Source of the DNA: Gari tellinella
Taxonomy: Eukaryota > Mollusca > Bivalvia > Cardiida > Psammobiidae
Reading direction: 5' to 3'
DNA length: 64,000 nt
Assembly (NCBI GenBank): GCA_922989275.2
Contig: OV277866.1
Span: forward strand, 51,637,246 to 51,701,245
This document shows, in pieces, positions 591-58,997 of the stretch. The notes beneath the pieces are model-generated. The model was not told the origin of the DNA. It saw only the letters and a list, made by a program, of their open reading frames with translations, and did not search any database. Every line of letters starts with the position of its first letter. Positions within the stretch are counted from its first letter, which is position 1. The position numbers and the translations under genes were made by a program.

Positions 591-825
591 TTAAAACTTT
601 CACTCTCAAAGACGTCATAAAGCGCATTTGCAAACAGTTTTGATCCTGATCAGACGCCGCGCAACTCGGCGTCTGATCAGAATCAAAGCTGTTTGCACTC
701 ATTTCTAAATTGCATTAGTCATACTGCCTGCAATCTTACTTTGAAACGATATTTCGGACAATACTATTGAAACAGACGACAATATGGCGATGAAGGGTAC
801 ACTTCTCACAATAATGGGTAAATCA
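591..825. mobile_element. MITE, TTAA-type (class F1), decayed, with core palindrome
   Basis: Aligns with the better preserved copy at 27662-27903 ahead of HYKK-A2, so the insertion predates the A1/A2 duplication. It carries the recurrent core palindrome at about 636-699 (GATCAGACGCCG / CGGCGTCTGATC arms). The left end is a mutated TTAACCCTTT and the right end has lost its TTAA. It lies just upstream of the A1 start codon. Confidence 0.6.
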
Positions 826-894
826 CCTTTCAGCACTGCATGGACCAGAAGTAAACAGCATCGTGCTATCAACGTGTAGTATATAACGGACACA

Positions 895-3800
895 ATGACT
901 GATACAAACAGTAACACCATACAAGTTCAGGACCCTAACACAGAGGTTAAACCGAAAGTGACGATAGACCAGGCCCTTGAAGTGGTTAAGAGAGTATATG
1001 GCTTAAAGGTAAGACAGGTGTACAGGCCATCTGACTTTCTACCACTTCCCAAATACAAGCACATTTACACACCTATACATTAACTTTTTACCGGTCCGTC
1101 TAAAGACACGAAACCTGGCAAAAACTCCTAAATCCACTAAAAAATCATCACTACTACAATTCCTTAATATGTAATCAATTAAAGCCTTTAAATTGTGTTT
1201 TTAAACTTAAATAATTTATGGAGAAAATAAAGAGCAAAAAGAATTCGTAAGAACATAGCTATATACAGTCACTTCCTTTTGGTGCTGGTATCCACACCAG
1301 CACCAAAGGAAGGTAACAGTATATATCTATGTGTTACGTTTTGTAAGAGTTGTTCCACTTAAATTTATAAGCTTTTATTTGATTTGATATTTAGGACTTC
1401 AAGTAGTTTGGGTTGTTTTTAAGTGGTTTGGGTAGGTTTTGGGTCTTTAGACGGAGCCACTGTTTACCATTTTCCCAGTACACGCGGATTTACACATTTT
1501 CATTGACTTTTCATCATTTATCATTTATGTGAACATAAATCTCCTTAAGGTTAAGTATTAGTTATAGTTCATTTTTTGAAAATTATGCAATATAACAGAA
1601 CAGAACAGAACAGAACAGAACAGAACAATCATTTTATTTGACTTGTACACAAGATACATCGTCATACAACTTACATACAAACTGTTACGTCAATCAATAG
1701 GCTTATCCAAACCTAAACCAACATACATGATATACATAATTATTTGTTGTTCTTTGTCTCTGCTGGGAGAGTACAAACTTATAATCATACTATGGATTTA
1801 ATAACGTTCATTAAGTTCTGAAACAAAAATTTCCTGGTCCATGCTTATAAAGCGTTCGATCCCAGTCCGAGATCGCTCACCAGTTCCTAATCCAGTTCCA
1901 AAAGCTCGAGAACGATCCCAAACCAGAGTCAAGCAAATGCTTCTTTAGTAAACAAAGCTAGATTATTTAATATTTTCTTATCATGACTAAGAAATAATTG
2001 GCATAATTTAAACATTGATGGCCTTGAAATATAGATTTTTTATCTAAATATCTGTGTCTTATCTCGTTATATATAGGACAAACACAAATAAAATGATAAA
2101 TATCGTCTATGTCCAAAAGGTCGCAAAAAGTACAAACTCGTTTCTGGGAATTCTATTAACGCCATAACGCCCGGTCTGTATTCTAAGAGAATGAGATGAT
2201 AACCTTAACTTTGTTATATACAGTCTTAGGTTATGGGGTACAACAACTAGATATAGTTCATATGAAAAACTGGGGTTAAAGTGTTTATACTCTTCTAAAA
2301 CGGGACTGTTTTGTATTGACTCATACCATTCCTGGACAAAACAATCAACTACACGTTGTTTGAATCAGGCCGGGAATGTTTTAACAGCGGCTTGATTCAA
2401 ATTATTAAAGACGTCTGAAAAACCATAAATATCAAGCAAATGTTTAACCTGCCAAACCCAATTTTTCTTACCCTGTTTAAAGTCTCCCACAGCTAAGTTA
2501 TACAATCTATTTAGATTTATGTTGTCTGTTTGTGTTAACTTGCACCCATATTTAATTAATTTATAAAACAGGTAATAAAAATAGGATAGCGACAGAGTTA
2601 CCCATAAACACCCATGGTGCTTGAATTTTTTGAAATCCTCAAAATGCGTTTGCAAAACTTAAGATGAACCCTCTCAATATCTTTTGATTTAGTAAAACCC
2701 CAAATTTCGGAAGAGTAATTCAAAACGGAACCCACACACGAGTCAAATAATTGGCAAAGCGTTTTTGACTTTAATGGCACTCTATTACAATTTACTAATA
2801 AGGTATACAGTGCGAACTCATTGTTAGCACTGAAATTACCGTTGCACTTGAAGACAGTTCCAAGATAGTTGAATGTATCTACATTTTCAATAGGCAAACC
2901 ATTGTAAGTCCATTTTTCATCTTCACGCAAAGCAATTCGTTTCTAAATACCATGACTTTTATTTTTGCATTATTTACTTCAAGGCCCCATTGTTGACAAT
3001 ATGTATATAACAAATCCAGATATAACCTGGAGCGACCGTAGGGAGCGAACAGGTTTTGTTGTATAATTTCAAACCAAATGAACTATATCTGGTTTACCGT
3101 TTGCCTCAAATATAGCACGCAGGCCAGCTTATGTCAGTTTCCGTTCAACCTACATTACCTATACTTAGTTATGGCTCAACACAAATTACCACTCGTCCGA
3201 GTTTTTCAGCCAATAAAAGGGCTCTATTTTGGATGACGGTGCTTCGCATTTTCAGAAGCCGGCGAGTTCACATTTACACATGACGTCACACAAAAAACTA
3301 GAAAATCGACCGGGAACCCTGTACGCGTGTAGGGCTCGCAGTAGGCATTTCCATTTAGACACAAAACCAAGCACGCGTTCCGACAGTATAGGGCTGAAAA
3401 ATGGCGTGAACGATCATTGTGGACTGGTGTGACATGAAAATGCTCGATCAATGATTTGCTAAAATATGATTCGCCGTAAAAATCAGTCACCAAGTATTAA
3501 GCAGCACATGATCAACCAAGATTCGAGTCCTTTAATCCCCTAATAGAGCCAAGCAATAATTGTTTTAAAGTCTGTTTAGAAAAAAAAAAGTAAAACACAA
3601 GTTACAGGGTGAAAACAATTCAAAACACCATAAATCAAGTGCATTCTTGGTTTTTAAATGACATTGATCTGGACTATGTTGTTAAGTGCGTTATACTATT
3701 ATTGACAAAAATGTCTATGGCACCGAAGGGGTTGACGACGGATGGCTGTTTAACGCAAGAAAGAAACGCTTATAGGAGCCTCTGTATTGCTTGCCTAATG

Positions 3801-6800
3801 CATTGATAAAAAGCAACCGTATTTAAGTACAATATTGAAAATAAACTCCTTCCTTTCGATAAGTTTTATAGTCAAATCTTTGTAAAGCGATTACACAAAA
3901 TAAGACTAGACCCACAGGTCGGCTGCTTAACCCTTTAAACCCAACACTTATACAATGAACAATTCGGGTCTAGTCCATTTTTGTAATAGGACCTCTACGA
4001 TGTAGTTCTACAAACTTTGCTCTGGACAAGTGTAACGGTACATGATAAATGACGAGTGAACTCGTCACCTAGGGTTCAATGAGTTAATGCATGACATGAG
4101 TAATACAGAAATGTCAATTCAGAGTGTTTCATATTAATTTCGTTATGCACTAACTATAGTCGCCTGTGTACAGAACTCTTTGATTTATTCATGCCTCTTC
4201 ATTGAAAAGCCGCAGTACACAGGTTATACATTACAGCGGTTGCTGTATGACGTAATGATGCGCTACGCTCCGCCTTTAGCACGCGGTGTCCCATAACCGG
4301 TTCATTACTTGTTTATTTCTGCTATACCCAATTACAAAACTGAAAAATATGCGATATATTTTTTCATTTCTCGCTGAAATGGAGCCCTTTCATTGACTGG
4401 TAAACTAGGGCAAACGGTAAGGAGTCCTTATGAGATCGAAATTTGTACTCTACGAACATTGATCGGCCATAATCGTCAACTGCCAGTATGTTACAAATCT
4501 TGCTAAAACATGGTTCGGAACAGGTCGGCAGTTCACATTAAGCTGATCGGTCTCTGTTGAGTTTCGATATTAACCGACATTGTTCAGGTCCTCAACCTTA
4601 AGGAGAGTGGTTCTTTACTCTCCAGTCGAGAGCTTTGTTCAGATAACGCACACCTGTATTCAGAGTCTCATTTTGATTTATATCTATTGGCATTCTGGTG
4701 ATATTCTCTTAATCAGTTCATGATCAAATTTATCGTGAGGTTTTTACCTTGTTGCCTTGTTCAATATTGTTGTCTGCAATATTGTTTCAAAATTAGAGTT
4801 AAAACAGTATGACTCAAGGAATTTAAAAACGAATGTCAAACAGTTTGGATCCCGATCAGACGACGCGTTAAGGGATCCAAAGTGTTTACAAATGCGCTTT
4901 ATGACGAAATTGAGAGGGAAAGGGTTAAGAACAAGATTTCTAAGAAAGGGTTAATAGAAAACAAACAGGTCAACACACCGTAAACGTGTAGACTTTCGGA
5001 CTCTACCAATAGTCAAAAGATAACTGCTAGAGTTATAGAGTTGCAATATTTATCGACTCTTTTCTGTTAATTTAGACCAAGACGTTGAAAGCTCTACCTG
5101 GGTATGAAGACTGGAATTACTTCTTTAAAGCCAATGAAGATTACGACAACAAAAACATAACTAACATATCACCAGATGGATACGTGTTAAAGATTTTCAA
5201 TACCTTACATTCATCAAACCCAACTGTTATAGGTACTGTGATTCATTTTTACATTTTCGGTTCATTTCAGCATCATGTTCGCTTATTCTGATACCAAAAG
5301 TTTTATAAGTGTACATAGTTAAATGTCTAACGCATTATTTGGTCTAAAAACATTGTGTCGTCTTTAGATATTCCAAGATTTAATTGAAATCGGACAGCTG
5401 ATAACATGCTGATGTTAAGCGAAATAATATGATTTCTTAAACGCCTATGCCTATTTGTAATTATAATCCAAAAACGTTTTCCATTAAACTATGATATTAT
5501 GATGCAAGCGTTTGTGGACATGTTTAGAGTTAATTTGAAAGACATGGCATTTTAATCAGGTACCAGTTCTTTTATTCAGAGGCACAACACGCTTTGATGA
5601 ACCACGTAATGGAAAAGGGGATGGTCACTCAATCCATTATACAGAACAAGAAAGGCTTAGAGTTTAGTATTGAAGAATTCACGGACAAAAACAATGGTGA
5701 GATTTGTAGTTAAATTCAGTGATTTATCTGGACTCATTTTTAGTGAAGAGGTTAAATTAGTTAAAAATGCTCAGCCATTTACCATTAATGCATTCGCACT
5801 AGTATATACAGTTTTAAAGTCCCTTGGGCAAGGAATCAACAGTTTTATATAGAACACTGTATTTTATTTATTCTTCGGAATCAGATTTATCTATTTACAT
5901 TTAATCAGTACATCTTCGCATGAAAGAGCTTTAAACTCTGAAAATCGGTATATCTTGCATTTGTTTGTGAGTACATAATAGTCTTACAATAATGGGCGCA
6001 AATTGAGCCAAATGCACAGGCTTCGAGAAAGATGTACATCAATGTTTACTGATGCAATGATCTTAAAGGTTTTATTTTGATATTAGATATTTCATTCTTT
6101 AATGGTTATTTATTTCTACAATCCTTTTAAACTTCTCTGGACTTACATTTGGGCATTTCATATTTTAAGAATATCGGTTATTTGAAATTAAAAACAACAA
6201 AAACTTTGCTATTTTTCTACTTTAATTTTGACTTCATTGGTGTTTCAAAGTTATTTTGAGTCATATCAAATAACAGGCAACGTAATATCTATCAAAACGT
6301 GTCCGCATTGATCATGCAGCTCGGTAGTCTTAACAAACATATACTTATTTCACCCTTAATAACGATACAATACATTTTTATCATTTTTAGGAGAAAGCCG
6401 GCAATACGCAGTACGTATTGTAACATTTATTTCTGGACTCATACTCGACCAAACACCACAAGTTGCTGGGACCTTTCGAAACGTTGGGGAGTTTCTGGGA
6501 AAGCTTCAACAAGCAATAACAGTGAGTAAATAAAACCAAAAAAACCATGTTACTATTATAAGATCATTTTCCTTACCTATTGAACATTAGTGACGCGGTG
6601 CATATGAACGTCCTTTACAGTTTACATTTGAAATATCGCGGTCCGTCTAATGACCCTAAACCTGCCGAAACCTCCCCAATCCAATTAAAACCCACACTAC
6701 TACAATTCCTTAATATATAATCTGATAAAGCTTTTAAATGGTGTATTTGAATTTAAATGAAGTATAAAGAAAATTAAGAGCAAAACGAATTTGAACACCA

Positions 6801-9800
6801 CGTAAGAACATAGCTTCATGCAGTTACTTCCCTTTGGTGCTGGTGTAAAAGGAAGTAACTGTATTTACCTATAGTTGCTCCCATTAAATGCCAAAAATTA
6901 TCGTAGATTTGATTTTAATTTAACACTTGTTTTATTATTGTAGCTTAAATGCGTCACTTATAAGCTTTTGATATTTAGCAATTGAAGTAGTTTGGGTTGT
7001 TTTTAAGTGGTTTGGGTAGGTTTAGAGAGGTACGGCGGTCAAACTATTATATATTTTCGTTGAACAAATTGACCAGACAGAAGTGCATGCAATATGTTAG
7101 CTGTAGATTTAGAAAAAAGTCAAACACTGCCTAGATATATATAGACTCACAGTTTCTACTAGAACTCTACGTATCCTAATTTGCAGTCTGAATTTGCGAG
7201 ACTACTTGAGAGAATTTTGATAGGACACTTGGGAACGTTTTAATACCTAATGGTGATCTAAGTATGTCTGATGTACAATCGGCGTAGTAGTACAGTATTT
7301 TTGTGATTAGAAAATGTATAAAATATATGCACAGAACGCCGTACGATATGTACGGAACTCTTTATTTTTCCCGTTTCTGTGAGAAATATCGCAGCATCAA
7401 ATAATTGTTAGAAAATTGAATATATCCATCAGTTTTACTTGTGTCACAATCGAACTCTGAGGGTTTGGTGATGTGTTTCACATTAAAAGTGTCAAATTTA
7501 TAATGTTAAGCTCAAATTATATGTACTTGTTCAATTTGTTTAGATTTGAATTAAATCAAGATCGCCTACTGTCGCATATATATCTACAGGTTTTCATACT
7601 TAGAAATTTGTAAATTATATGTAAGGAAATAATATAATTCTAGAATGCAATAGTTGCAGACAACAAAATGCCATCTATTAATGAAATAATATCAGATTTT
7701 AAGTGTCAATATGGTCAGAATTAGAGGCAAGAACTACAGGAACCCCCTTTTAGAATGAATCTTGGACCCGTCTTACGAAACGTCCTTGGACAAAAACGGT
7801 CGTAAGTCAAAAGAAAAAAGTATACAGCTTAATCCTGTATGGTGACATTTCTTTTTCAAGACAATTCCAAAGAGATGTCACAAGACAGAATTAGATTCAG
7901 AAATGAATATTTACTGAGAATTTTAAAATCTGACATACGACAATATTTGTTGAACAACGTTTCGAAAGACATGCCCCTGGGACCCGTTTCATTAAACTTA
8001 GTCAGCCAGATTACTAGGCTTGAATTTCAATTTGTTTTATCATTTTGACGTTCAAAGAAGCAATGTGTAAATTAGATTTACCAATTTAACCTTTCTTTTA
8101 CACAGGGTTTTCATCATCCGTTTTACGACACTTATAATCACATATGGAACATGTTTGAGACGCCGAAGTTAAGAAATTTTATAGAAGCTGTCAAAGACAA
8201 AGATGACAGGAAGATAGTTGAAGAAGTTATCGATACGTTTGAAAAAGTGATCGTACCAGAGTCTGTCAATTTTAAAAAAGGTAGTTTTAATGATTTTAAC
8301 CCTTATCCTGCTGGTCGCGACTTCACAGGTTTTTGCAAACAGTTTGGATCCAGATCAGACGCCGCGTAACGCGGCGTCTGATCTGAATCCAAACTGTTTG
8401 ACACTCGTCTTTAGGTTTCTTTAATTAAAAAATGTATAAACCTAAATTTAACAAATTTTGCAGACGACAATTTCAAAGCAGACGACTTTGCAGCAGGATA
8501 AGGGTTAAGTAAAATATCTTAGATTTGTTATCAAATTTGTCCATCTTTATGATGAGCCGGTCTATGAAAATACAGTATACCTCTGACAAACGGATGAAAA
8601 TGTTTGGATTGTTCAGAAATGCAAAGATCCTTTAACCTTTATCATGCTGAGTAAATTTTGGCTAACATTTACAATTTACATACAATTTGGATCCAGAACA
8701 GACGCCTCATACAGAGTTTTACCGCAGAGCATATATATATCTGTAGCAAACGACATTCAGCGTAATCATGATAACGATCCTTCTTCATACATTAACCCTT
8801 TCCCTTATAGAAGCGACTTTTAGCACACTCATTTTATTCATCCGCTGAAGAAAATAGTTCCAAATTATACCGTAATGAATATGTGTCATATTAAATACTT
8901 TCCTTATTCTAGCAGTTAATAGCTTAAAGCAGGCTGAAAGTAAAGCAGAATGCGCCTTAGGGCGCATTCTGCTTTACTTTCAACCTGCTTTAAGTAGTCA
9001 CATATCTTCAATTATAGAAACAATGCTATCAGGTAAAGGGTTAAGGAGCCACTTGCACTGTTAGCAATGTACAGTCGAATTTTAATATCTCGAGTTGGTT
9101 TTGTCAATCATACCCGTATTTCAAAGTTCAAACGTGGCTAAGCCACGTTTTAATATGAAATATGGGTATGTTCGACTTAACCGAGCATGGAATAATGCAG
9201 TTCATTTGTCGAACTTTCCGATAATTCGAGTTGAACGAGCTCGAGATATTGAAGTTCGACTGTATATCTCATTTTTGAAGAACTCATTCGAAAGTAGAAT
9301 AAATGTTTGGAACGGAAATTTTGCTTTCAGAAACTTTAAGTTAGCTAGAGTACAGGTTCGAAGGTTATAAAGCATTTGATTGGTCAGATTTGAGTAGTTG
9401 CTGATCAAAAATTAAATATTGACCAATCACAGGCTTGAGATGGATTTTGGACTCAACTCATAAGCTTTAAAACCTTGGGGCCAGTTTTCGGAGTCTACAA
9501 TGTCGAAGTAAAAAATATAGATCCTGATCAGACATCGAGTAACTTACTTGGCGTCGTCTGATCTGTATAAAAAATGTTTGCAAGCGTTGGACAAAGGTAT
9601 TGCATAGATTAATGCTTGCATTGTAAATATACAGGAATGATTCACGGAGATGTCAGTGACCAGAATCTGATAGTACATAAAGTTCCTGTGAAAGAGGGCG
9701 AAGTTGACACAGGTAACCATGATGTCACAGCAATATTGGATTTTGCGGATGCCATTTCTTCCTATGCGGTCGTTGACATTGCAGCATGTATCATGTATCT

Positions 9801-10095
9801 GTCATTGGAATGTCCGGAGGAGAACCAGTTGGACGTTGGTGGTCATTTACTAGCAGGGTATTACAAAACCAACTCTTTAAATGAATCAGAAAAGAAAAAC
9901 CTACGGACTCTAACTTGTGCTAGATTATGTCAGTCACTTGTGTTAGGGGCACATTCGTTTTCCCTACAGCCGGAGAATGAATACCTCTTACTGACATCTA
10001 AACGAGGTTGGCCATTGCTGCGCAAGTTATGGAACACTAGTGATGATGAGTTGTATTGTCGCTGGAATAGTATATTAAAATCATATGGATACTGA
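895..10095 (+). CDS. HYKK: Hydroxylysine kinase-like protein, copy A1 (six exons)
   Basis: Exons 895-1008, 5076-5232, 5580-5696, 6391-6521, 8106-8280 and 9635-10095 (stop included) join in frame with GT-AG introns to 384 residues, close to the usual HYKK length of about 370-385. HYKK enzymes phosphorylate 5-hydroxylysine with GTP in lysine/collagen breakdown. Visible APH-fold features: the GYVLKIFN strand with the nucleotide-site lysine (exon 2), the catalytic loop HGDVSDQNLIV with H, D and N kept, and the metal-binding LDF motif (exon 6), followed by the family-typical VGGHLLAGYY and RLCQSLVLGAHS. Oddities: the DFG-like glycine is alanine (LDFADA), and exon 1 has VVKRVYGLK where other copies have VVWRVYGLK. 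Intron 1 holds a 2.86-kb insertion and intron 5 two MITEs. The reading frame is intact; expression is unknown. Confidence 0.85.
1093..1458. mobile_element. MITE with GGTCCGTCTAAAG ends, intron 1 of A1
   Basis: The left end GGTCCGTCTAAAGAC is matched by the inverted right end GTCTTTAGACGGAGCC, with inverted similarity continuing about 90 bp inward. The centre (1247-1340) is a hairpin around CACTTCCTTTTGGTGCTGG. The same element sits at the orthologous place in A2 (28179-28582), and another copy is at 6640-7037. No coding capacity. Confidence 0.75.
1557..4418. other. 2.86-kb insertion block in intron 1 of A1, absent from A2
   Basis: A1 and A2 introns align up to CTCCTTAAGGTTAA (A1 about 1556; A2 about 28765) and again from AGTCCT..TGTACTCTACG (A1 about 4419; A2 about 28770). 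The intervening sequence is only in A1. It contains a LINE fragment (1590-3012) and, to its right, about 1.4 kb of unassigned non-coding sequence (3014-4418). The right edge GGCAAACGGTA is inverted relative to TACCGTTTGCC at 3097, a possible short terminal repeat pair; I could not define a target duplication. Confidence 0.65.
1590..3012 (-). mobile_element. 3' fragment of a LINE (non-LTR retrotransposon) with pentanucleotide tail
   Basis: Read on the - strand, 2930-2365 encodes the region downstream of the reverse-transcriptase core: DEKWTYNGLPIENVDTFNYL followed by SEIWGFTKSKDIERVHLKFC, typical of animal LINE ORF2 C-termini, then a frameshifted continuation containing KNNW/KKNWVWQVKHLL-like sequence. 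A further frame break lies near 2935 (VMVFRN in another frame). The 3' end is marked by a (TTCTG)n tail at about 1594-1627. The element is 5' truncated, as is usual for LINEs, and non-functional. LINE clade not assigned. Confidence 0.75.
4714..4924. mobile_element. MITE, TTAA-type (class F1), intron 1 of A1
   Basis: Left end CATGATCAAATTTATCG, right end GAAAGGG followed by TTAA (4925-4928). It contains a half-deleted core palindrome at 4837-4890. Its orthologue in A2 is 29074-29292, and related elements are at 15302-15545 and 46454-46687. Confidence 0.65.
6640..7037. mobile_element. MITE with GGTCCGTCTAA ends, intron 4 of A1
   Basis: Same family as 1093-1458: left GGTCCGTCTAA, central hairpin around 6805-6870 (GTTACTTCC..TTTGGTGCTGG), right part TTTGGGTTGTTTTTAAGTGG. 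The right terminus is decayed. In A2 only a short left remnant is visible near 31017. Confidence 0.65.
7767..8000. mobile_element. Decayed MITE of the GGGCCCGTTTCATAA family, intron 4 of A1
   Basis: Contains AACGGTCGTAAGTCAAAA on the left and the internal inverted pair TGACATTTCTTT.. / ..AGATGTCACAAGACAG seen in the better copies at 11460-11689 and 22581-22823. A2 keeps only a fragment near 31060-31108. Confidence 0.5.
8300..8504. mobile_element. MITE, TTAA-type (class F2), with proven empty site
   Basis: 205-bp element with 14-bp perfect inverted ends (CCCTTATCCTGCTG / CAGCAGGATAAGGG) and TTAA on each side (8296-8299, 8505-8508). A2 at the same place has a single TTAA (GATTTTAAG.TAAAATATCTT), so this is an insertion with TTAA duplication, the signature of piggyBac-type transposition. 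It carries an almost perfect core palindrome at 8336-8402 and lies 19 bp after the exon 5 splice donor. Confidence 0.85.
8796..9040. mobile_element. MITE, TTAA-type, with a different (type B) palindrome
   Basis: Flanked by TTAA (8792-8795, 9041-9044). A2 has the empty site with a single TTAA (CATTAAGCAGCTACTTGC near 31788). Ends are CCCTTT..AAAGGG. The interior holds a long palindrome at 8922-8998 built on GCTTTACTTTCAACCTGC arms, unrelated to the core palindrome of the F1/F2 elements. It inserted after the A1/A2 split. Confidence 0.8.
9070..9264. mobile_element. Palindromic MITE with TACAGTCGAA ends, intron 5 of A1
   Basis: Inverted ends TACAGTCGAA / TTCGACTGTA and a central palindrome around AACGTGGCTAAGCCACGTTT. 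A deleted relic is at 31814-31899 in A2, a decayed copy at about 17209-17416 and a good copy at 63405-63602. No coding capacity. Confidence 0.75.
9520..9583. repeat. Core palindrome copy in intron 5 of A1
   Basis: GATCCTGATCAGACATCGAG paired with CGTCGTCTGATCTGTAT, ending in TGTTTGC. Present at the orthologous site in A2 (32045-32108), about 50 bp before exon 6 in both genes. Confidence 0.6.
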
Positions 10096-35314: not shown

Positions 35315-35367
<53 letters not shown>

Positions 35368-45963: not shown

Positions 45964-48900
45964 ATGACTGATACAAATAGTAATACAATAAAGCTTCAGG
46001 ACCCCAGCATAGAGATAAAACCAAAGGTGACGACAGACCAGGCTCTTGATGTGGTATGGCGAGTATACGGATTAAAGGTAATACAGCCATGTGTTCATTA
46101 GCTCGAATTCTACAGAACATCCCGCGATCCACTCGGCTCAGGGTACCTACAGGTTCATGTGCCTTCAACATTACATGCTTTTGTCTCTCTCCTGGTCACT
46201 CCTCCTTTTGCGCCCTGAGTTCAAAGGGTCGCCACGAGAGGCTCTGTAGAGTTAACGCTAATGAACACAGGCCTGATGTACATATAATCCCATGTTTAAT
46301 TTACGATTTCCCCCCAAACACATTTTTAGACCACCATAATTTCTTCATATAATGGAATATACTTGAATCCTTTTCTGTTAAAGAATGTTCAGACTAGTTT
46401 CTGTCCGGTGCGTGCTCAAGCAGGTTAAGAGCGAAGCAGAACTATCTCCTTAACCTTTCAATGAACAAATATCGTGAGTTTTTACCCGTTCACCGCCATA
46501 ATGTACATGTAGTCTATTTCAATATTGTTGTCTGCGATATCGTTTCAAAGATAGATATAACTGACGTAATTTCCAAACAAGTGGCGTACAGTATTTGATC
46601 CTGCTCAGAGGCCGCGTTACGCGACGTCCTGGTCAGGATCAAAGTTGTTTGCATATGCGCTTTATGACGTCATTGAGGGTGAAAGGGTTAATGAGAGTAA
46701 TTCTTTATTTGCAGATGAAGGGTTAAGTTCAGATTGCTCGAACATTTATTGAGAATCTTAATTTGATTTATATCTATTGACAACCCGGTGATATTTTCTC
46801 AGACTATATGCATATATATCAATTGTATAATGTTTGCATACGACAATGATATAACGTGCTAAAAGTTAACAATTTACCTCAACGAAGCGCCTTTAAAAAC
46901 ATTTATTTTAGTTGTCTACGTAAGAAAATGTTCCGATTTATATAGTCATTAGTATGTTTTAATTCAAGCAGATTGTAGATAAAGCAGGATAAAAATAAAG
47001 CATTTAGCAAAATTTAGAGAACACAGATTCACAAACCGTAAATTTGTAGACCAACAGTCCATCGTTATATGTGATATAATATTTTCTTTTCTGTATAATT
47101 ATGTAGACCGAAACTTTACAAGCTCTGCCTGGGTATGAGGATTGGAACTTCTTCTTTCAAGCCAATAAAGAGTACGACAACGAAAACATACCTACCATAT
47201 CACCAGATGGATACGTTTTGAAGATTTTCAATAGCTTACATTCGTCAAACCGAGCTGTCATAGGTACTGTTATTTACAGTTAATACTATTCGGTTCTAAA
47301 TCATGTGTGCGTATTCTTTTACATGTACCAGTGTACGAGTACATAATACAACTTATTACGCATATTTCTTTTTTCAAATTGTTACGTATTCAGTTATTTC
47401 AATAGTTAAAAGAAATCGGACAGCTGATAATATACATGTACTGATGTGAACCGAAAATAAACGCGTAAACATTTTTGTAAATATATCGAAAGTTATTTTT
47501 ATCCATTACCATTCTAAAATACAATTTAGTATGTTTTAATACGCTCGTACGGTAGAGCTTTTATGCGCGCCATGACATTTTGATAAAGTACCATTTTTAT
47601 GTTTCAGAAGCACAGCACGCTTTGATAAACTACGTTTTGGCAAAAGGAGTAGTCACTCAATCCATCATACACAACAAGAATGGCTCCGAATTTAGTATTG
47701 AAGAATTCACGGACAAAACTAATGGTTAGAAATTCAATTAAATTGTATCGAAATTCTTCTGAAGGTTGCTCGTTTCGAAATAGAAGTCAGATATGGTAAA
47801 TGTATTTCATTAGATTTATTTGACCTTCAAGATATGATGCACGGTGGAAATAGGTCGATGCCAATTTGGACACCGAGTTATTCGGTGTTGATTAGTCTGC
47901 GTAGATAGACATACAGACAAAATCACTTCTAAACCCATACAACAAACTGATGCACTTAAGTCAATGTATTTAATTTTAATCTGAGATTTCAATTGAAGAC
48001 ACCGAGGTTTTACAATGCTTAAATTGCGACTTTAATTGGTATTTCCAAACTCTTGTAAGCCATATCAAGCTACAGGTTATATAATAATTCCAAAACAAGT
48101 AAACATTGTTTATACAGCCTAGTGGTCTTTACAACACACATTGACATATATAATTTACCTGACAGTAGATTAAATTGTTCATCATATGTTTGCAGGTGAA
48201 AATCGACAATACGCAATACGTATCGTAACATTTATACCTGGAACAATACTCGATCAAACACCGCCAGTTGTTGGTACCTATCTGAATGTGGGGGATTTTG
48301 TAGGAAAATTTGAAAAAGCAATAGAAGTGAGTAAATGATATCAAAGCAACCGCTTTACTGGTCTATGAATGTGTTCCGTACCTATTAAACACAAGTAATG
48401 CTATGCATATATATGCATTCTTTACAGCAATGTACCTGTAAATGATTCACGCCATAACGGCGGTAAGTGTATTATATTTTGAGTGTACTTGAAGAGAGAT
48501 TGACTGTAAAATTAAAACAACAGCATGCCCTATTATGTTTTCTGCAAACACAGAAACAATATTTAAAGCATGACATACAGCGAGACTTCAGATTACAAAA
48601 GAGTTCCATCTATGTTCCTTTATATCACTTCCGAACCCTATGTCGTGACTACTCTGAGTGTATCGTGATGTGTACCAAACTTTATGCTACAGTACTGAAC
48701 CTTATTAAATTAAATTGATAATCGCAAGCGAATTGCCATCGAATTGCCATCGAATCGGGCGCTTCAAAAAACAAATCCTACGTTTGAATACTTTAACGCG
48801 AATTTTCAGAAGGGGTTGTGACAAAAATGGAATCGAAAAAATTAACGAAGGCATATTTGCGAACATTTGTGAGATACACCACTCAAGAAAACGTATCCGA

Positions 48901-50651
48901 GGGTAAATTAATTAATCGAATTTTCTATGGGTCTACACCTACAGGAACCCTCTCACCAGAATTGATCTATTTTTCATTATGCACAACCCAAAATAGTCAG
49001 ACATGAACTAGACTTGATTTCCAACTTGCAATGTCCGTTTGGCAGGGAGCAACATGTTAATTAACCTCAGAATATAAGTATTCCAACATAATCTTTCTTT
49101 TACCCAGGGTTTTCGTCATCCGTTTTACGACACGTATAGTAGTATATGGAATATGTTGAAGACACCGATATTAAGGACTTTCATAGAAGTTGTCAAAGAC
49201 GAACATGACAAGAAGATGGTTGAAGAAGTCATCAACGCATTTGAGAAAATTATTGTACCTGAGTTAAGCAATTTTAAAAAAGGTATTTTTAAGGATTCCA
49301 AATTTAACTATCAAATACATTAACATTCTTATCAGTCGGTCTATGAATATAGTTACGACTCTGTCCGGACTATACAGGCAACCAGGCACCGGAATGGCAA
49401 TCGTTAAAACAGGCAATATTTCATAATTCGATGATATTGAATAAGTGTGTTTAAGTATTAGAGTTATTGAACAAGTTGGATTAAGCAATTTGTTGCGAGC
49501 ATTTTGCGACATATCATTTTATCTAACGAGTTCAATAAATTGTTTTAGATTGATTAACATGTTCGATGTTCATGGCAGTTCTACTTCGTTGGGTACTACA
49601 TTATCGTCCGTTGCATAGTTGTTGTCAGCAATGAATTTTTAAAAGTTCCACTGTAAAGCCATTCTAGCTAAAGACACGAGGGCAAAACAGTTTGCATCCT
49701 GACCAGATGCCGCATTTTTCCGTGTCTGATGTTGGTCCTAAATGATTGCATATTCTATTAGAGGTGCAGTATAATGTGTCTTACCACGCCGTAAAAAAGA
49801 TTGTGTACAGCCCATCGTGTTCTGAATAAGTTACACGAAAAAAACCCAACAGTAACGGCTTAGACTATGACGGTTACTTAAGACAGACTTTAGAAACTGC
49901 CGAAAAGTCACATAGATCTATAAGCATTATGTTATTGTGTCCAGCATTCAGAATAATGTACGTCTAAAATATATCATAATTTCTGCTTTCACCATCTTAT
50001 CCTGTCTTGTGACATCTCTGTGGAATTTTCGTTTCAAAACGATTCCAAAGAAATGTCACAAGACAGGACAAGATGGAGAACTAAATACTAATTGAGAGTT
50101 TTAGAATCTACCATACGGCAGTATTTGTGGTACGAGTTTTAATAACATGGCCCCTTGATTTCAACTTTACTATTTAAACAGGAATGATTCACGGAGATAT
50201 CAATGCCCAAAACCTGATAGTACACAAAATTCCTGCGAAAGAGGGCGAAGTTGACACGGGCGTCCATGATGTTACAGCCATATTGGACTTTGGGGATGCA
50301 ACATTTTCATATGTAGTAATTGAAATTGCAACAACCATTACATATCTCTCACTCGAATGCCCGAATGAGAGTCAGTTGGACGTTGGTGGTCATTTTCTTG
50401 CAGGCTATTACAACCACGGCTCTCTGAATAGAGTAGAGATGAAAAGCTTAAGATATCTTGTATGTGCTAGATTATGTCAGTCACTTGTGTTAGGGGCGCA
50501 TTCCTTCTCCCAACAACCAGAGAATGAATACCTCTTACTGACATCTAAACGAGGTTGGCCATTGTTGCGCCAGTTATGGAAAACTAGTGACGATGAGTTG
50601 TATTGTCTCTGGAATAGAATAGTCAAGTCACATGGCACTGTTATACTGTGA
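45964..50651 (+). CDS. HYKK: Hydroxylysine kinase-like protein, copy B2 (six exons)
   Basis: Exons 45964-46077, 47107-47263, 47608-47724, 48196-48326, 49108-49282 and 50182-50651 join in frame with GT-AG introns to 387 residues. This B-type copy keeps the most family-like active site: GYVLKIFN in exon 2, HGDINAQNLIV and ILDFGDA in exon 6, i.e. the full DFGD that the A copies have changed. It has VVWRVYGLK in exon 1 and a three-residue longer C-terminus (SHGTVIL). The exon 3 donor is ATG|GTTAGA, slightly weak. Role by homology: phosphotransfer to hydroxylysine or a related amine, cytosolic or mitochondrial; not shown by sequence alone. Confidence 0.87.
46454..46687. mobile_element. MITE, TTAA-type (class F1), intron 1 of B2
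   Basis: TTAA at 46450-46453 and 46688-46691; core palindrome 46592-46655; same insertion as 15302-15545. Confidence 0.75.
49990..50155. mobile_element. Decayed MITE of the GGGCCCGTTTCATAA family, intron 5 of B2
   Basis: Internal inverted pair TATCCTGTCTTGTGACATC / GATGTCAC-like TGTCACAAGACAGGACAAGA and a degenerate right end AACATGGCCCC. A decayed core palindrome lies upstream at 49688-49750. Confidence 0.55.
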
Positions 50652-50754: not shown

Positions 50755-51110
50755 ACGACACCCAATGTGAGACAAAAATTATGTGCGTTGTTCGGAGGGA
50801 GTCGTTATAGGCAGAGGATTGGCTTACAGTTGCAAACATCTTGAATCCAGATTAGACGCCGCGTCACGCGGCGTCTAATCTGGATTCAAGCTGTTTGTCA
50901 CTCATCATTATGTTTTTCTCTGTCAAAATGTCCAATGTGCTACTTTGAGAAAAACAGCAGACGACAATTTCAAGCAGACGATATTGCAGAAGTGAAAGTA
51001 TTAGACATATAATTGTCTTGTTTGGGGAACAGCGGCAATGGTCGTTGTAAAGACGGAGTTGTTGTTTGGAGGGAGGGCCGTTGTAGAGAGGGAGTTACTC
51101 AACCAAGGAT
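50755..51110 (+). mobile_element. MITE class F3 with perfect core palindrome
   Basis: Right end CGTTGTAGAGAGGGAGT..AACCAAGG, inverted relative to the CCTTGGTT end of the 18105-18437 copy. Left part AACGACACCCAATGTGAGAC. Core palindrome at 50832-50900 with arms ATCCAGATTAGACGCCGCG / CGCGGCGTCTAATCTGGAT that match perfectly. Confidence 0.7.
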
Positions 51111-51601
51111 GGTAATTTATTTGTCAGAATACAGTGTAAGGTTTCTTTTTAACTGAAACTCAACTGCGTTAATCTTTGTGGCATAAACTAATCCTTTCTG
51201 GATATAAACTAAATTGAAAATTGTTTAATTGTTGTTGGTGTACATTTAAGGCACACAATAAACTCGTCACAGGTTTGGCAATTGAATCCAAACCTTTTTG
51301 CTAAAATATTCACGTGGTCATCGCTAGTGGTCAAAACATGATTGTGTTCTGTTTATGCGTAGAATTGATGTATGTATTAACTGTATGTTAATATTTGATG
51401 GCAATCTGATAGTTTAACATGACAATGAAGCTCATTAATATAATCTTTCGTTATATCGCCTGCTTTGAAAGTGGCGTCTGCAAACTTTAACAAAATAAGA
51501 TTTATACATGTGTTTCATTGAAAAGGTCTTCTGGATAAGTAGGGTGCCAAGCAGTTTGGACCAGGATCAAACGTCGCGATAGGCAAATACAAAATAATGT
51601 G
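51111..51601. other. Non-coding stretch with a half core palindrome
   Basis: No exon seen. One arm of the core palindrome (AGCAGTTTGGACCAGGATCA near 51550) remains without its partner. Otherwise nothing recognised. Confidence 0.4.
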
Positions 51602-52078: not shown

Positions 52079-52197
52079 ATATATAGTGACCGGGCCCGTG
52101 AATCGAACCCGGGACCTCCCACTTGCAAGGCGAGCGTTATAACCATTGAGCCAAAAGTCCGGACGTTAGGCTCGAGGGCCTAACACTGCCTATATTC
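52079..52197 (-). repeat. tRNA-Ala-like unit 1
   Basis: On the - strand: TGGCTCAATGGTTATAACGC, anticodon-loop-like CTTGCAA (TGC) in CTCGC/GTGGG, and GGTTCGATTC box B. The anticodon arm pairs with wobble; acceptor pairing is poor. Followed by an AGTGTTAGGCCCTCGAGCC tail. It repeats almost identically 278 bp further on. Confidence 0.6.
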
Positions 52198-52356
52198 ACT
52201 ACACTCCTCCCCATCTTAATTTTGAGGTCCTTTTTTTTTTATCCCTTTCGACTTACGGTAGCTACCACGCGTCATTTCTGACGGTGACCCATGTATCGGG
52301 CAAGGACAGTCACCACCAGATGGTGCGGAAAAATCCGTTTGCCGACAACGCCATTA

Positions 52357-52475
52357 TAGTGACCGGGCCCGGGAAACGAACCCGGGACCTCCCGCTTGCA
52401 AGGCGAGCGTTATAACCATTGAGCCAAAAGTCCGGACGTTAGGCTCGAGGGCCTAACACTGCCTATATTCAGTAC
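52357..52475 (-). repeat. tRNA-Ala-like unit 2
   Basis: Same unit as 52079-52197 with a better anticodon stem (CTCGC/GCGGG) and T stem (CCGGG/CCCGG), but TTCGTTT in the T loop. Two units in direct orientation around a 159-bp spacer suggest a SINE dimer or local duplication rather than working tRNA genes. Confidence 0.6.
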
Positions 52476-53864
52476 ATATATCTACCTTTGATACACGAAA
52501 TTCGATGTAAGTTTTGATAAACAGTCAGTCCTGGGCTGAACACATTCAACCCTAACGACGACTTCACTCGTCATTTATAACAGTGTACATGTGAAACGTA
52601 CAATAGACCTATGAAGAATGTGTAGACCTTAATCAGAGGGATCCGAAAAGGGTCCTCTAATCAGGGACTGCAACCGTGAACAATCCTAAATAGGCAAAAT
52701 TGGGCTGACTTAAGTTATGATTGAAAACGTGGACTGTTGTTTTGAATATGAATGACTTGCGAAAACAAATCTGCAAACTCTTTGAACGTTATATTTCAGT
52801 TGCTTTCAATAGAAAAGCCAAGTTTCATTAACAGTTTTATGTATACCAAATGGTCCACTCCAGGCCCGTAGGAACACGGTGGGAAGATACAATAATCTTG
52901 CCAATATTAGTAAAATATACCTAGTTATTTACATAGATATAAGTAGGTAGTTTACGTGTTTTGAATGTGCGAAACGCCCATCAGAACGCATCAGCTAGAG
53001 ACCGTCTAAAAACAAAATTTTCACGGGGGAGCATGCTCCCGGACCCCTAGTAATTACCGAGTTCCTAGGACTGTCTCAGGTTTGTCTGCGGAAGGTCGCA
53101 GTATTGCAAACATTCGGACATTATTCCGCGCCGACGCGGGATGGCTTGTGATCCTCTCTCTAAATGATAGCTAGATGTAAGATATGTGTCTCACATATTG
53201 TCAATATACTCATGTCTTGATGTTTTCATGATGATCGAAACGGCCATGTTCAAATTGTAAAACGAAAGTGCCTAACGGCACGACAGTCGTGCGGATAACA
53301 ATTCGTATATTCACGTCAACTATTCATGTAATCGGACGCAAATTTGTTTCATAAAAGGCAATTTTGTCGTAAATTGACAAAAAAGGTAAATTCACGATAT
53401 CGAAAATTAACGATAGGTGTAGGATAATTCATAACACGGGCCCCAGAGCTGTATCCTTACGAACGTCGTTCCGATAGACACTTACATGTACCTAGACTAG
53501 AGCTGTCAGCCAATGAAAACCGCCCTTACAAAAACCGTTAGTATCCCATAATGCTAATTTAAGACAATATATTTTTTAACATCCGTTGCAAAACGTGAAA
53601 AATATTGATTCGATATTTTTTTTTTTTTTTCTATAAATTCAAATATATATGTTCATTAAAAAAATATTGATTCTGAAAAAAAATATTTTAAAATTTATTG
53701 AATACATATATTTTTTAAGAAAAAAATATTTTGTCAGATAGAAAATTATATTTAAATTATTGAATAAATATTTTTTTCTTGACCATATATTTTTCAGATA
53801 GAATGATAAAGTTTTTATTGAACCATTATTTCTTTTTGCAACACTTCACATGCCATAGAGTTCG

Positions 53865-54110
53865 CAGTGGAGAAAACGTGATTCTTTCCCGTTTAAACGC
53901 AAACGAAACGCAAACGCATTGCAATAAAACATCAAAAGACAACTTTTCGACAATTCTATCTGTTCATGTTAATCTAAGTGGCAAACAGTTTAAAACCTGA
54001 TCAGACGCCGGGTTACCCGGCGTCTGATCTGGCTCCAAACTGTTTGCAATGGAATAATAGTTTTAGTGTAAACGCGTTTATGGGGAAAAAGACTAACGTC
54101 TTCTCCACTG
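53865..54110. mobile_element. MITE class F4
   Basis: Ends CAGTGGAGAAAACGTGATTC and ACGTCTTCTCCACTG. Core palindrome of the CGGGTTACCCG subtype at 53982-54049. It abuts the end of the 2.26-kb element. Confidence 0.8.
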
Positions 54111-54145: not shown

Positions 54146-54942
54146 CCCTTTCATGATCAAATTTATCGTGAGGTTTCGTTACGCAGAATAGTGGACACGC
54201 AGGTGGCCCACTTGCTCTCAATTTCGAGCATTAAAATAAGAAGGGCATTTTTACATAACTTGTAATAACTTTTTTTTCTGGACAGATATCGTTCCTGTGC
54301 AAACGGCCTGTGTTAGCTTAAACATTTTCCTTTATGATGGAATTGTTTTGAAAAAATATTTTAATAAGATTTTGGTCCTTTTTTAAGTTTAAAAAGACAC
54401 CTCTAAATCACATTAAACAAAGAGTAAAATGCTGAAAATAAGCCTCGACACGGATAATATAACACGACCTTGTGCATTTATACAAATCGATATCAATTCT
54501 GTGCAAACGGGCTCGTATACTTGACTATTTGTTCTTTCTTTTGATATAAATTTAAGAATTGTAAGTTAATGTTAATTTGGTCCTTTTTCAAATTGAAAAT
54601 AAAATTAATATGTTCAAAGAGTCGTCGGGAGTTTCCGTAAATACCGAGCGGTAAGAGCCGAACATTGACGGGCACGCAAACTAGCGTAGGACAGTTTATC
54701 GATAATCTATCGGTGTCCACTATTCTGCCTAACGTTACCCCTTCACCGCCATATTATCGTCTGCCTTAATATTGTTTTCTGTATAATTGTTTCGATGTTA
54801 GATTTAAGTCAGTAGAAATGACGTTATTTCAAAACAAGTGGCAAACGGTTTTGTACCCGATCAGACGCCGCGTTACGCGGCGTCTGATCAGGATCAAAAC
54901 TGTTTGCAAAAGCGCTTTATGACGTCATTAAAATTAAAAGGG
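54146..54942. mobile_element. MITE, TTAA-type (class F1), split by a nested element
   Basis: TTAA at 54142-54145 and 54943-54946; CCCTTTCATGATCAAATTTA at the left and core palindrome 54840-54907 near the right. The F1 sequence breaks off at GAGGTTTC (54178) and resumes at CCCCTTCACCGCC (about 54738). Confidence 0.75.
54179..54734. mobile_element. 556-bp TIR element nested in an F1 MITE
   Basis: Inverted ends GTTACGCAGAATAGTGGACA (54179) and TGTCCACTATTCTGCCTAAC (54734) with one mismatch. Interior AT-rich, non-coding. It postdates the F1 insertion. Confidence 0.7.
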
Positions 54943-55475: not shown

Positions 55476-55481
55476 CATATA

Positions 55482-55721
55482 CAGTGGAGTATCTGTTATT
55501 CTTTCCCAATAAACGCGTTTACGCTAAAACTATTATTTCCAGTGCAAACAGTTTGGAGCCAGATCAGACGCCGGGTGACCCGGCGTCTGATCAGGCTCCA
55601 AACTGTTTGCCACCAAGATAAACAAGAATTTTCAAAATTGTCCAAAAATTGTTCTTTTCTACGTTTCAGTGCTTTGCGTTTCGTTTGCGTTTAAACGGGA
55701 AAGAATAACAGATCTCCACTG
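55482..55721. mobile_element. MITE class F4, well preserved
   Basis: Ends ACAGTGGAGTATCTGTTATT and AATAACAGATCTCCACTGT. Core palindrome 55545-55612: GGAGCCAGATCAGACGCCGG arm with exact inverse CCGGCGTCTGATCAGGCTCC apart from one base. Confidence 0.82.
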
Positions 55722-56078: not shown

Positions 56079-56339
56079 TAGTGAAGAAGACGTTATTCTT
56101 TCCAGTTTAACCGCATACGATACGCAAACGCAATGCACTAAACTGTAGACAATAATTTATTATATTTTTTTTTACATTTCTTACAACTTATGTTAATCTT
56201 AGTGGCAAACAGTGTGGAGTATGATCAAACGCCGGGTTTCCCGTCGTCTGATTAGGCCCAAAATGTATGCAATGGAAATATTAGTTTTAGCGTAAACGCG
56301 GTTATTGAGGAGGATAACGTTTTTACTCATTTGCACTGT
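56079..56339. mobile_element. MITE class F4, decayed
   Basis: AGTGAAGAAGACGTTATTCT at the left, AGGATAACGTTTTTACTC at the right; core palindrome 56204-56272 with several mismatches. Confidence 0.65.
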
Positions 56340-57295
56340 ATCTACCATTAATATTTCGCATACCAAAGTACACTCGATGCAAATGATGTTACATTAATAT
56401 CTATGTCGCATCTGTTACATTGTAAAAAATCAAATTAAATTGTACAAAGAAAGTGGTAATGTTGAAGTACACGATGTTCAGGCAGGAAATATGTTGGCTG
56501 TTTTGCAAATGCATGTGTTGTATTGTTTCACCATAAGACGTTATCATTTCCAATTCACCGCAAGTAAGTAAGTAAGTAAATATTTTATTATTGTAGCATG
56601 TGCATAGAATGTTTATTACGAGTTCTACGTGTATTGTTACATCACATATTAAATGTGATCAACATATTTAATTGGTTGTGTAACTGGAAAATTTTCAAGT
56701 TCAGTTCTCGGAATGTTCACTTTGGTTGGAGTTAACACTTTTCAAATAATCGCATTATGTGCTTAAACATTTTTTGTCATCGCAAACAGACTGGAAACAT
56801 ATCGGTTGCCATCTGATCAGAATCCAAACTGTTTGATATTCAGAGTACAATAAAATGTCAACATTTTAAAAAAGTTTTCCTTTTGACATATGAACAATGC
56901 CATGACAAAACCAACATTATTGCATTGCAAACCGTGTAGATAAAGGCCAGTCGCCGTGTCAAAGATGTGGCGACTGGCCCTGGTCTATACCGTTTGACAC
57001 ACACATGAATCTTAAACATTTCATGTAACTGTATTATGTAGACCTACGGTATTTGGCAGTGTAGACCAAACTCAGAGCACTAAATACAGAGCATAGGATG
57101 ACAGCGGTGCTTGGTCTGTACAACGTTGCAATGCAATAAGGTTTGGTTTGTCATGGCGCTTCTCATGTATAGTGTTTCGTTTCGTTCAAATGTACATATT
57201 TAACTTCTTACCAATTGTAAGGTTATTACACAGAATGCACATGTTATCTTTTGCAAAATATGTATGTTTGTATAGCTACATGTACTGTTACATTA
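56340..57295. other. Upstream flank of HYKK-A3 with two palindromes
   Basis: Holds core-palindrome variants at 56783-56843 and 56930-57000; the latter has a wholly different stem (GGCCAGTCGCC / GGCGACTGGCC) but keeps AAACCGTGTAGA..TATACCGTTTGAC ends. 57240-57293 matches the upstream flank of the other HYKK copies. No exon seen. Confidence 0.55.
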
Positions 57296-58735
57296 CGAGG
57301 GCTGTCCCAAAACATCGTAGACTTTCCTTATAAAAGTGTTCGTTAAAACAGCAGAGACAAACGGTCGTCAGTATATATAAACATATGGTTTATGTAAACC
57401 TGTGTGAAGTTTTAACGTGTTATCTTTAAAACTGACCAGCACAGAATATTTTGAAACACCCTACCTGTGTAACCCCGGCGCACACTAGGTAATGTTACGA
57501 CGTCATCGACATAAACGTCATTCCTTTTAAAAATACTTGTAGTGGTGATTGATGCATTTTCGCTGACGCACAACTTCTTAAACAAGCTGATATCTACATG
57601 TAGCTCGCGCAACACTCTCAATGTTTCTTGTTTGAGCTGTACTCAACGTTTTCAATGTTTGTCCGCGTATCTGAGGTTTTAGGTATGAAAATACTGCAAA
57701 ATCTAATTGGTTAGGTCAATGGTATGTGGCGCATGTCTAAGCTTTTGAAAACCCAACACGGCAAGTTCCAAATGTGCATACTGGGTAATGTGGCACGAAG
57801 CGATAAACTGGTGCAATGTGTTGCTTCCTAAGTTGTCAATGAACCCCGGTCACTTCTCTCGTATCGTATTCAGGAGGTCTGTGTGATGGGTGTTTGCTGA
57901 AAAAGTCCTGATCTCTCGCATATCGTCTCAAGAAGAGGGTTGATACCTAGACACATCTTTCTTTTTCTTCTGCACTTAACAAGCGTGGCACCCATATAGC
58001 ACCGACTCTCGACATGTTTAGTTTCTCACGTAAAAGTCAATTTACAGACAATTTGCTGACCCCGACGAGTTCAGCATTCTATCTCACCGCAAGACGTCGA
58101 TCACCATTCATGACGCTCCTCACGTTTTCTACAATGAAACAGTCAATTTCTTCCGGCCGTCCCATCTTTACATTATTTTCTCAACCCCTCCTCCTGAAAA
58201 TCGCGAATGCTATTTGAACTCCAGCAAGCGAGATGCTGATTGATAAATTTCTGATGAGTGTAGTTGTTTTAACGTCTGTTTCGGGATCAAATGCAACTCA
58301 AAACAGTATTCTATGACATTCTGCTGCGCCGCCTTTTCCCCTGACGTCGTAATTTCTGGCGTCTTCAGAACACGGTATCATTCGCCATAACTAGATATCT
58401 TTTTTTTTAAAGGACGCTACGTTAACGAATTTTTTCCAGGATGACGTCATATATAACAACGTCAACATTCATGACGCAATTTTGCGCAAATTCCGATTCA
58501 AAATTTCTTTGTAGGAGGTTGTAAAATGTACCTCTTTAAATTTGGCGTGCGCCGCATAATCTAACCAACAATGAATATATACAAATAAAATAGGGTCAGG
58601 TTTGTTCAGGAACCTTATTATTTCTAATTCAAATGTGAACATGTTTGAAATAGCATTGGTAAAAAAATCAAAGAAATGTTACGTCGGGTTCTTCAAAAAA
58701 AAAAATTAGTCCACGGTGTTTTGGGACAGCCCTCG
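57296..58735 (-). mobile_element. Mariner-type transposon relic in the HYKK-A3 upstream flank
   Basis: Inverted ends CGAGGGCTGTCCCAAAACA (57296) and TGTTTTGGGACAGCCCTCG (58735), flanked by TA at 57294-57295 and 58736-58737. The end sequence and 1.44-kb length are typical of mariner elements. The interior is riddled with stops in all frames; only loose - strand similarity to a transposase end could be guessed. The HYKK flank (..ACTGTTACAT|CTCGGTGAAG) resumes right after it. Confidence 0.85.
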
Positions 58736-58756
58736 TACTCGGTGAAGTAGTATTAA

Positions 58757-58997
58757 CCTTTTATCACCTGAAACTTCCAATAGACAAATGCAGTTAACAA
58801 CAAAGGCTAGTCCATTTAATTATATTTAGGATTGTTTTTAAACATATTGCAAACTGTCAAACAGTGAAGTCCCTGATTAGAGGGCTCCTGCAGGACCCCT
58901 CTAATCAGGGACTTCACTGTTTGCATAAGTCACATGTACCCATCACGGGTACACTTTTGGTAAAGGACGCATATATGCGTCACTAAGGCTAAATGAG
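58757..58997. mobile_element. TTAA-type MITE with a divergent palindrome
   Basis: TTAA at 58753-58756 and 58998-59001. The palindrome at 58850-58925 keeps CAAACAGT/ACTGTTTG ends but has a new stem (GAAGTCCCTGATTAGAGGG and its exact inverse). Confidence 0.7.

Follow-up and report, generated by a model that had tools for sequence, protein, structure and literature searches.

How does a hairpin keep its symmetry while its sequence changes, and how does the same hairpin come to lie in transposable elements with different ends? Both questions are raised by a stretch of the genome of the bivalve Gari tellinella (assembly GCA_922989275.2, contig OV277866.1, positions 51,637,246 to 51,701,245), hereafter the window, which comprises 64,000 bases with 36.8% G+C; all results given here refer to this one 64-kb window. 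It contains many copies of a palindromic core that sit inside miniature inverted-repeat transposable elements (MITEs) of several families. The first-pass annotation had described this core and the paired changes in its two arms, and we found the observation as a whole to be correct and its interpretation to be supported in part. The families differ from each other in both arms at the same positions, the changes found within families are mostly confined to one arm, and inserted copies retain their mismatches.

The A-type hairpin is about 65 bases long, with arms of 32 bp, and is almost mirror-symmetric. A profile built from 11 seed cores matched 24 places at the cut-off of E<1e-3, i.e. the 11 seeds and 13 others, and additionally 43556 at E=0.003. 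The core was present at all 12 places that had been named before (E 2.5e-24 to 5.9e-13, better strand), ten of which were seeds of the profile; the two that were not are 15450 and 46592. The half-site GATCAGACGCC, allowing at most 2 mismatches, occurs 47 times versus 6.0 expected, and CAAACAGTTTGG 55 times versus 9.4 expected. Palindromes of any family with a score of at least 14 number 20 in the window and 0 in each of 10 first-order Markov sequences. Half of the 20 belong to the core family (nine A-type, one B-type), with an apex of 0-1 nt in nine cases and of 7 nt in the tenth. The earlier figure of more than 20 near-perfect hairpins therefore stands with regard to the number of places, but not with regard to their quality, since the copies at 15450, 46592 and 21316 are degraded and several others lack the centre. 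Self-comparison and pairwise alignment revealed five pairs of segmental duplicates among the copies (662/27730, 4867/29230, 9545/32071, 15482/46624 and 8696/31632). As these are not separate insertions, the matches at E<1e-3 correspond to about 19 insertions. Stems that differ in sequence and still pair were confirmed at 56928-56996 and 58858-58923. The copies of the first three families (F1 to F3) and those without assigned termini are as follows.

631-695, plus strand: A-type hairpin, F1 copy, segmental duplicate of 27698-27762
27698-27762, plus strand: A-type hairpin, F1 element with left end TTAA-CCCTTTAACTCTCAATGACGTCA at 27658
54842-54906, minus strand: A-type hairpin, F1 element
15450-15511, minus strand: degraded A-type hairpin, F1 element, mismatches identical to the duplicate at 46592
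46592-46653, minus strand: duplicate of the 15450 copy
4837-4888, minus strand: F1 hairpin, one arm with a deletion, duplicated at 29205-29256
29205-29256, minus strand: duplicate of the 4837 copy
21316-21379, plus strand: A-type hairpin, F2 element, one arm degraded
31600-31664, plus strand: A-type hairpin, F2 element, TTAACCCTT at 31553
8679-8711, plus strand: half hairpin, duplicate of the 31600 copy minus the second arm
50833-50897, plus strand: A-type hairpin, F3 element, AACCAAGG to the right
18281-18345, minus strand: A-type hairpin, F3 element, CCTTGGTT end
9511-9582, minus strand: degraded core copy, no terminus identified, duplicate at 32038-32109
32038-32109, minus strand: duplicate of the 9511 copy
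49685-49750, minus strand: degraded core copy, no terminus identified
56782-56835, no strand given: degraded core copy, centre lost, no terminus identified
62868-62917, no strand given: degraded core copy, no terminus identified
51548-51582, minus strand: half hairpin adjoining an F2-like body with boxes

The changes in the two arms were compared in 16 alignment rows, which represent 14 insertions of four families (F1-F4) defined by their termini and not by the hairpin. The remaining seven of the 23 rows were left out, one as an identical duplicate and six because their type was unassigned or different. At positions 8, 11, 12, 14 and 30 the families differ from each other on both arms. Position 17 also differs on both arms between F1 and F2, and is less clean for F3, which agrees with F2 in three of four arms. 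These six paired positions compare with two asymmetric differences at the family level. The paired differences reported for F4 are real: G is found at position 14 in four of five copies on each arm, being lost on one arm in 54014 and on the opposite arm in 56238, and the difference at position 30 is seen on both arms in all four scorable copies. Hairpin type does not strictly follow the terminus, i.e. the 4867/29230 insertion has F1 ends and yet carries the G/G pair at position 11 that is found in F2-F4.

After merging the duplicates and setting aside the two family-level asymmetries, the private changes within families amount to 63 single-arm versus 3 paired sites, the latter being position 15 in 27730, position 11 in the 4867/29230 insertion and position 21 between both F3 copies. 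The excess of paired changes at the family level over the private ones is significant (Fisher 1.2e-5, or 1.7e-4 if position 17 is taken as unpaired), and the probability of at least five coincident positions is about 5e-5, assuming 8 changed positions per arm. In other words, structure is kept while sequence changes, as had been suggested, in the sense that paired changes are frequent between families and rare within them. The same tendency appears when 22 distinct rows are scored for structure: cells with double changes number 26 versus 13.2 +/- 2.7 in shuffled alignments, and the covariation score is 0.128 versus 0.090 +/- 0.009 shuffled and at most 0.048 with the partners slid.

The kind of substitution bears on the cause. 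Transversions account for four of the six family-level paired changes, C:G to G:C and A:T to T:A among them; since no G-U intermediate bridges such changes, they fit copying between the arms better than selection on an RNA. Mismatches inside the copies comprise 14 of G-U type, 17 of A-C type and 30 others, so that the excess of G-U over A-C on one strand by which compensatory RNA selection would be recognised is absent. Homogenisation by template switching would produce paired changes whatever the type of substitution, and this is what is seen (6 paired, 4 of them transversions, versus 2 asymmetric). Paired transversions without wobble tolerance are thus expected from arm-to-arm copying, not from stepwise RNA compensation. 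Arm-to-arm conversion, one of the two causes named in the first-pass annotation, is in this respect supported.

The fate of resident copies can be followed in the segmental duplicates. The 15482/46624 pair (hairpins 15450/46592) has its hairpin mismatches in common and shows 0 differences in 61 bases, and the 4867/29230 pair (hairpins 4837/29205) has a one-arm deletion in common. Because duplicates retain their mismatches, correction must be rare or absent in resident copies over the time scale of the duplications, and it follows that symmetry must be either re-established in active source elements or selected among them. The copy at 8696 lacks the second arm that is present in its duplicate 31632. 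We note that when 8679-8730 is compared with 31600-31720 the former lacks some further sequence in addition to this arm, and that the breakpoint is close to the apex, the joint carrying a short GCAT-like repeat.

The elements around the hairpins were oriented so that the conserved right flank follows the hairpin. The following ones are referred to below.

8296-8508, plus strand: F2 element, CCCTTATCCTGCTGG ends, TTAA on both sides, type example of the TTAA clan
8336-8400, plus strand: A-type hairpin of this F2 element, 32-bp arms and 1-nt apex
8460-8486, plus strand: two GCAGACGAC boxes between hairpin and right end of this F2 element, coordinates counted by eye from the alignment
55482-55721, plus strand: F4 element, CAGTGGAG ends, hairpin 55545-55609 with arms GGAGCC and CGGGT
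53865-54110, minus strand: F4 element, hairpin 53982-54046
13737-13955, minus strand: F4 element, second end approximate, hairpin 13840-13904
56079-56315, minus strand: F4 element, degraded, second end approximate, hairpin 56206-56270
43483-43721, plus strand: F4 element, both ends present, flanked by TA on either side, hairpin 43558-43602 without centre
17862-18069, plus strand: F5 element (CCCTTAGTGTGCTGG), TTAA only at the right end, B-type hairpin 17902-17954 with centre lost
58858-58923, minus strand: B-type hairpin in an F7 element, TTAACTCATTTAGCC end
52619-52672, plus strand: second B-type hairpin copy, F7-like left flank
56890-57166, plus strand: F6 element, inverted GCCATGAC ends, own stem in the hairpin at 56928-56996
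8792-9044, minus strand: TTAA-CCCTTT element, C-type hairpin 8923-8994 of unrelated sequence, 50 nt from one end including TTAA

The distance from the left end to the hairpin is about 40 nt including TTAA in F1, F2 and F5, 38 in F6, 50 in the C-type element and about 60 to 90 nt in F3, F4 and F7. The hairpin is usually preceded by TTG or TG and, in F1-F4, followed by the consensus NCACT (by eye). Beyond it lies an A+T-rich body, which in F1-F3 contains two GCAGACGAC-like boxes ahead of the right end.

Are the termini of these elements really unrelated, as had been stated for at least four of them? F1 (CCCTTTCACTCTC), F2 and F5 begin with TTAA-CCCTT or a degraded form of it, and judged by their sequence these ends are those of a TTAA/CCCTT, piggyBac-like clan. 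The F2 element 8296-8508 and the C-type element 8792-9044 are short, non-coding and have inverted ends with TTAA on both sides, as MITEs do, and their duplicated TTAA together with CCC...GGG-type ends is that of the piggyBac superfamily. In most F1 copies and in F5, just one end has the TTAACCCTT motif, and the opposite end is degraded or unmatched. For F4, where Tc1/mariner elements would show a TA duplication and CAGT ends, TA is found on both sides in one of the three two-ended copies (43483-43721), and the remaining two are flanked by TA/TG and CG/TA. F6 has inverted ends without a clear target duplication; it had been noted merely as a new stem and represents an additional family with different ends.

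The similarity of the bodies was evaluated against mononucleotide shuffles only, the hairpin borders of the 15482 and 46624 copies being a few bases off. The 3' bodies of F1 and F2 are similar (best z=8.3 and median 2.2 of 21 pairs, of which about 8 reach p<=0.01), and the right-hand parts of F2 and F3 more so (best z=15.8, median 8.6, 4 of 6 pairs at p<=0.01). F3 has the ends CCTTGGTT/AACCAAGG, and its interior matches F2 from the hairpin through both boxes (F2 8333-8496 versus F3 50830-50992, 77% in the self-comparison). A complete F2 right terminus within F3 was considered and rejected, since the terminal stretch by itself does not reach significance (p 0.15-0.33) even though the register fits. 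F4 shows no consistent similarity outside the core, as right-hand pairs at p<=0.01 number 0 of 35 with F1, 0 of 10 with F3 and 2 of 15 with F2. The right-hand parts of F5, F6 and F7 also show no consistent similarity, single F2-F7 and F4-F6 pairs reaching p<=0.01. The F5 hairpin is related to that of F7 (E=7e-4), and both have a weak relationship to the A type (arms p=0.014); the F6 hairpin matches the A type at E=0.011.

The claim of at least four unrelated termini has therefore to be given up, as both TTAA types form one clan by ends and body and F3 has the F2 body and boxes. Continuous homology outside the core, which the first-pass annotation had set against its own interpretation, exists in F1-F3 and does not extend consistently to the bodies of F4, F5, F6 and F7. 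The comparisons of ends and bodies leave one TTAA clan, one family that shares the body of the clan (F3), F4, and F6 with the core alone.

The explanation that we favour, and to which we would give about an even chance of being right, is that a palindrome inherited in the TTAA clan has its arms kept alike by arm-to-arm copying in active lineages and has been carried into other elements. On this view a clan of non-autonomous TTAA/CCCTT (piggyBac-like) MITEs would have inherited the palindrome near one of its ends, and the hairpin may have passed from there into elements with different ends by nesting or recombination. F3 would have received it together with the body, F4 and F6 with hardly more than the core and some adjoining bases left and right. 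As long as a lineage is active, a change in either arm would be copied onto its partner, most simply by polymerase template switching during replication or transposition, and new copies would be born nearly symmetric. Resident copies would rarely if ever be corrected; they would decay arm by arm or lose the centre. Template switching as the cause, the direction of the spread and a benefit of the palindrome to the element are what we infer. In the passages considered, template switching is described as homogenising inverted-repeat arms in yeast genes (PMC8604942) and is proposed for RNA stems (PMC8794818). The paired changes on both arms, including kinds that cannot be reached via G-U, are alike here; the difference, as far as these passages go, is that the process is described for yeast protein genes and RNA genes, whereas here it would act in internal hairpins of MITE lineages, where mismatches persist after insertion.

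Several points weigh against this explanation. The sample is small (16 rows, 14 insertions, four families). Symmetry is not always restored, as F4 has an A/A mismatch at position 17 in all five copies and F2 a one-arm change at position 15 in two of three copies. Two further structure counts are weak: pairs changed on both sides number 11 versus 7.6 +/- 1.8, a value reached by 29 of 500 shuffles and exceeded by one slid version (14), and the observed value for further pair types is reached by 110 of 500 shuffles. Between duplicates the core has diverged less than the flanks (16/284 versus 601/5452, window permutation p=0.033), which hints at weak constraint or repair in resident copies too. 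A Fisher value of 0.003 for this slow divergence was dropped, as neighbouring sites are not independent, and the permutation value is given instead. Finally, no transposase or autonomous relative was found in the 64-kb window.

A second hairpin raises the further point that symmetry may itself be selected. The C-type hairpin (72 bases) of the TTAA-CCCTTT element 8792-9044 has an arm without similarity to the A type (p=0.95), and its place near the end of a TTAA element suggests selection for the palindrome itself, beyond neutral copying, which again speaks against the explanation that we favour. By eye as well as in the palindrome listing, a large hairpin is absent from the TTAA element that extends from 3927 to about 4087. 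With one element each way, an unrelated hairpin in a similar place is a lead and not a result. The window also contains a repeat family with inverted ends GTCGAACTTCGATATCTCGA (63409-63599, also 9067-9265 and 17242-17414), which has its own long palindrome (63432-63522) directly beside one end and is a second case of similar architecture.

The best of the other explanations, which we regard as possible although doubtful, is that selection acts directly on the palindrome as a signal in the DNA for transposition, its two arms being bound by a symmetric protein dimer (a transposase domain or a host factor) whose half-sites would change together with its specificity. The described parts of the piggyBac and piggyBat systems contain a left-end palindrome bound by two C-terminal domains, and the two ends of piggyBat differ strongly (PMC11707139); here, too, the hairpins of the TTAA elements lie near one end only, at about 40 nt (F1, F2, F5) or 50 nt (C-type) including TTAA, and a stem of unrelated sequence at a comparable position hints that it is position and symmetry that are kept. 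The elements resemble piggyBac-type MITEs in being short and non-coding with inverted ends, in the CCCTT-type ends and flanking TTAA on either side (F2 and the C-type element), and in the palindrome near one end. They differ, however, in that the palindromes described in the same passages measure only 19 bp in piggyBac and about 14 bp in piggyBat, compared with 65 bp here, and in that the sequence shifts while the symmetry stays. Moreover, F4 and F6 have other ends, so that a single transposase would not serve all, and the hairpin is missing from the element at 3927. On this analysis a role of the palindrome in transposition at the DNA level would be plausible for the TTAA families and not obviously for F4 and F6. 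A broader version, namely that several transposon superfamilies carry an end-proximal palindrome selected for symmetry and position, with replaceable sequence, as a cis-acting aid to MITE amplification whichever transposase is used, we hold only tentatively and as something that probably is not so.

It is improbable that the hairpin is a tiny transposon, i.e. two inverted ends with nothing between them, that was inserted separately into several MITEs. This would agree with its occurrence in elements with different ends, with F4 and F6 having almost no other similarity to F1-F3, and with the five core copies without identified element ends (9511 and its duplicate, 49685, 56782, 62868). Against it, no target duplication is apparent around the core, and NCACT recurs to the right of the core in F1-F4 and CATTTG-like bases to the left of it in most F1 and F3-F6 copies (all by eye), as in common descent. 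Still less probable is a hairpin that acts as RNA (small-RNA precursor or transcript structure) with paired changes as compensatory substitutions for folding: predicted folding is strong (with DNA parameters, three copies have z -13 to -14 and the F6 hairpin has -6) and there are weak sub-threshold matches to microRNA families, but near-perfect palindromes fold by construction, the apex is merely 0-1 nt, transversion-type pairs without an excess of G-U over A-C misfit selection on one transcribed strand, all matches of Rfam families to the core hairpins are below the gathering score, with no microRNA match near it (e.g. 31.3 versus 61 and 31.3 versus 100), and the search thus gave no positive evidence for selection on a hairpin RNA.

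Modules shared between different elements are known from other systems. The accessible passages of PMC6887750 describe SINE (short interspersed element) families that have a conserved domain in common, as well as the mariner MITE MER6 with its SINE V domain. As there, one internal module lies in elements with different ends, even of different transposon classes; in those passages, however, it is the sequence that is conserved, whereas in the present elements both arms drift in sequence and the palindrome persists. The bacterial REP/REPIN palindromes, as far as the sources seen describe them, are likewise short dispersed palindromic repeats, but are bacterial and not modules inside inverted-repeat transposons. 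A search for the core in viral contigs gave 0 matches to the exact pattern, records of the window's own or near genomes being possibly excluded, and a protein search with a 57-residue reading of the hairpin gave no candidate. Among the titles and displayed abstracts found by word searches of the open-licence literature, none describes the core-hairpin module, which does not show that it is unpublished; a text search with four short stretches of the core led to papers with titles on unrelated topics, and the words 'palindrom' and 'hairpin' are absent from the examined passages of a paper on bivalve transposons (PMC10294476).

The surrounding window is rich in segmental duplications and repeats, and contains retrotransposon reading frames with reverse transcriptase, ribonuclease H (RNase H) and integrase domains. 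Ty3/gypsy-like frames with these three domains lie at 33856-39553 on the minus strand, one stretch of which has an inverted partial copy (33923-34121/34508-34706); adjoining the retrotransposon is a perfect 49-nt inverted repeat with 50 nt between the arms (34118-34265). Three related open frames of a duplicated gene are found at 9613-10095, 32140-32622 and 50178-50651, the last of which matches the APH phosphotransferase family just under the cut-off (22.1 versus 23.2 bits), the other two having no match. A tandem array with a period of about 160 bases and an inverted last part occupies 18805-21187. A hairpin at 23567-23686 matches the microRNA family MIR1878 at 50 bits, below the gathering score of 70. 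Finally, 52082-52203 and 52355-52476 form a near-identical direct repeat (97%); part of the latter copy has a transfer RNA (tRNA) score of 30.2 bits (gathering 29), and ARAGORN finds no tRNA.

What would the finding mean for these elements? If it held across the genome, the many copies in datable insertions would allow arm-to-arm copying and compensatory selection to be told apart, which for the paired changes of RNA genes is a question left open in the passages considered (PMC8794818). It would also mean that an internal module is kept for its symmetry, and not for its sequence, across families of transposons whose ends differ, and would be a warning against taking covariation alone, in hairpins of repetitive DNA, as evidence of RNA function.

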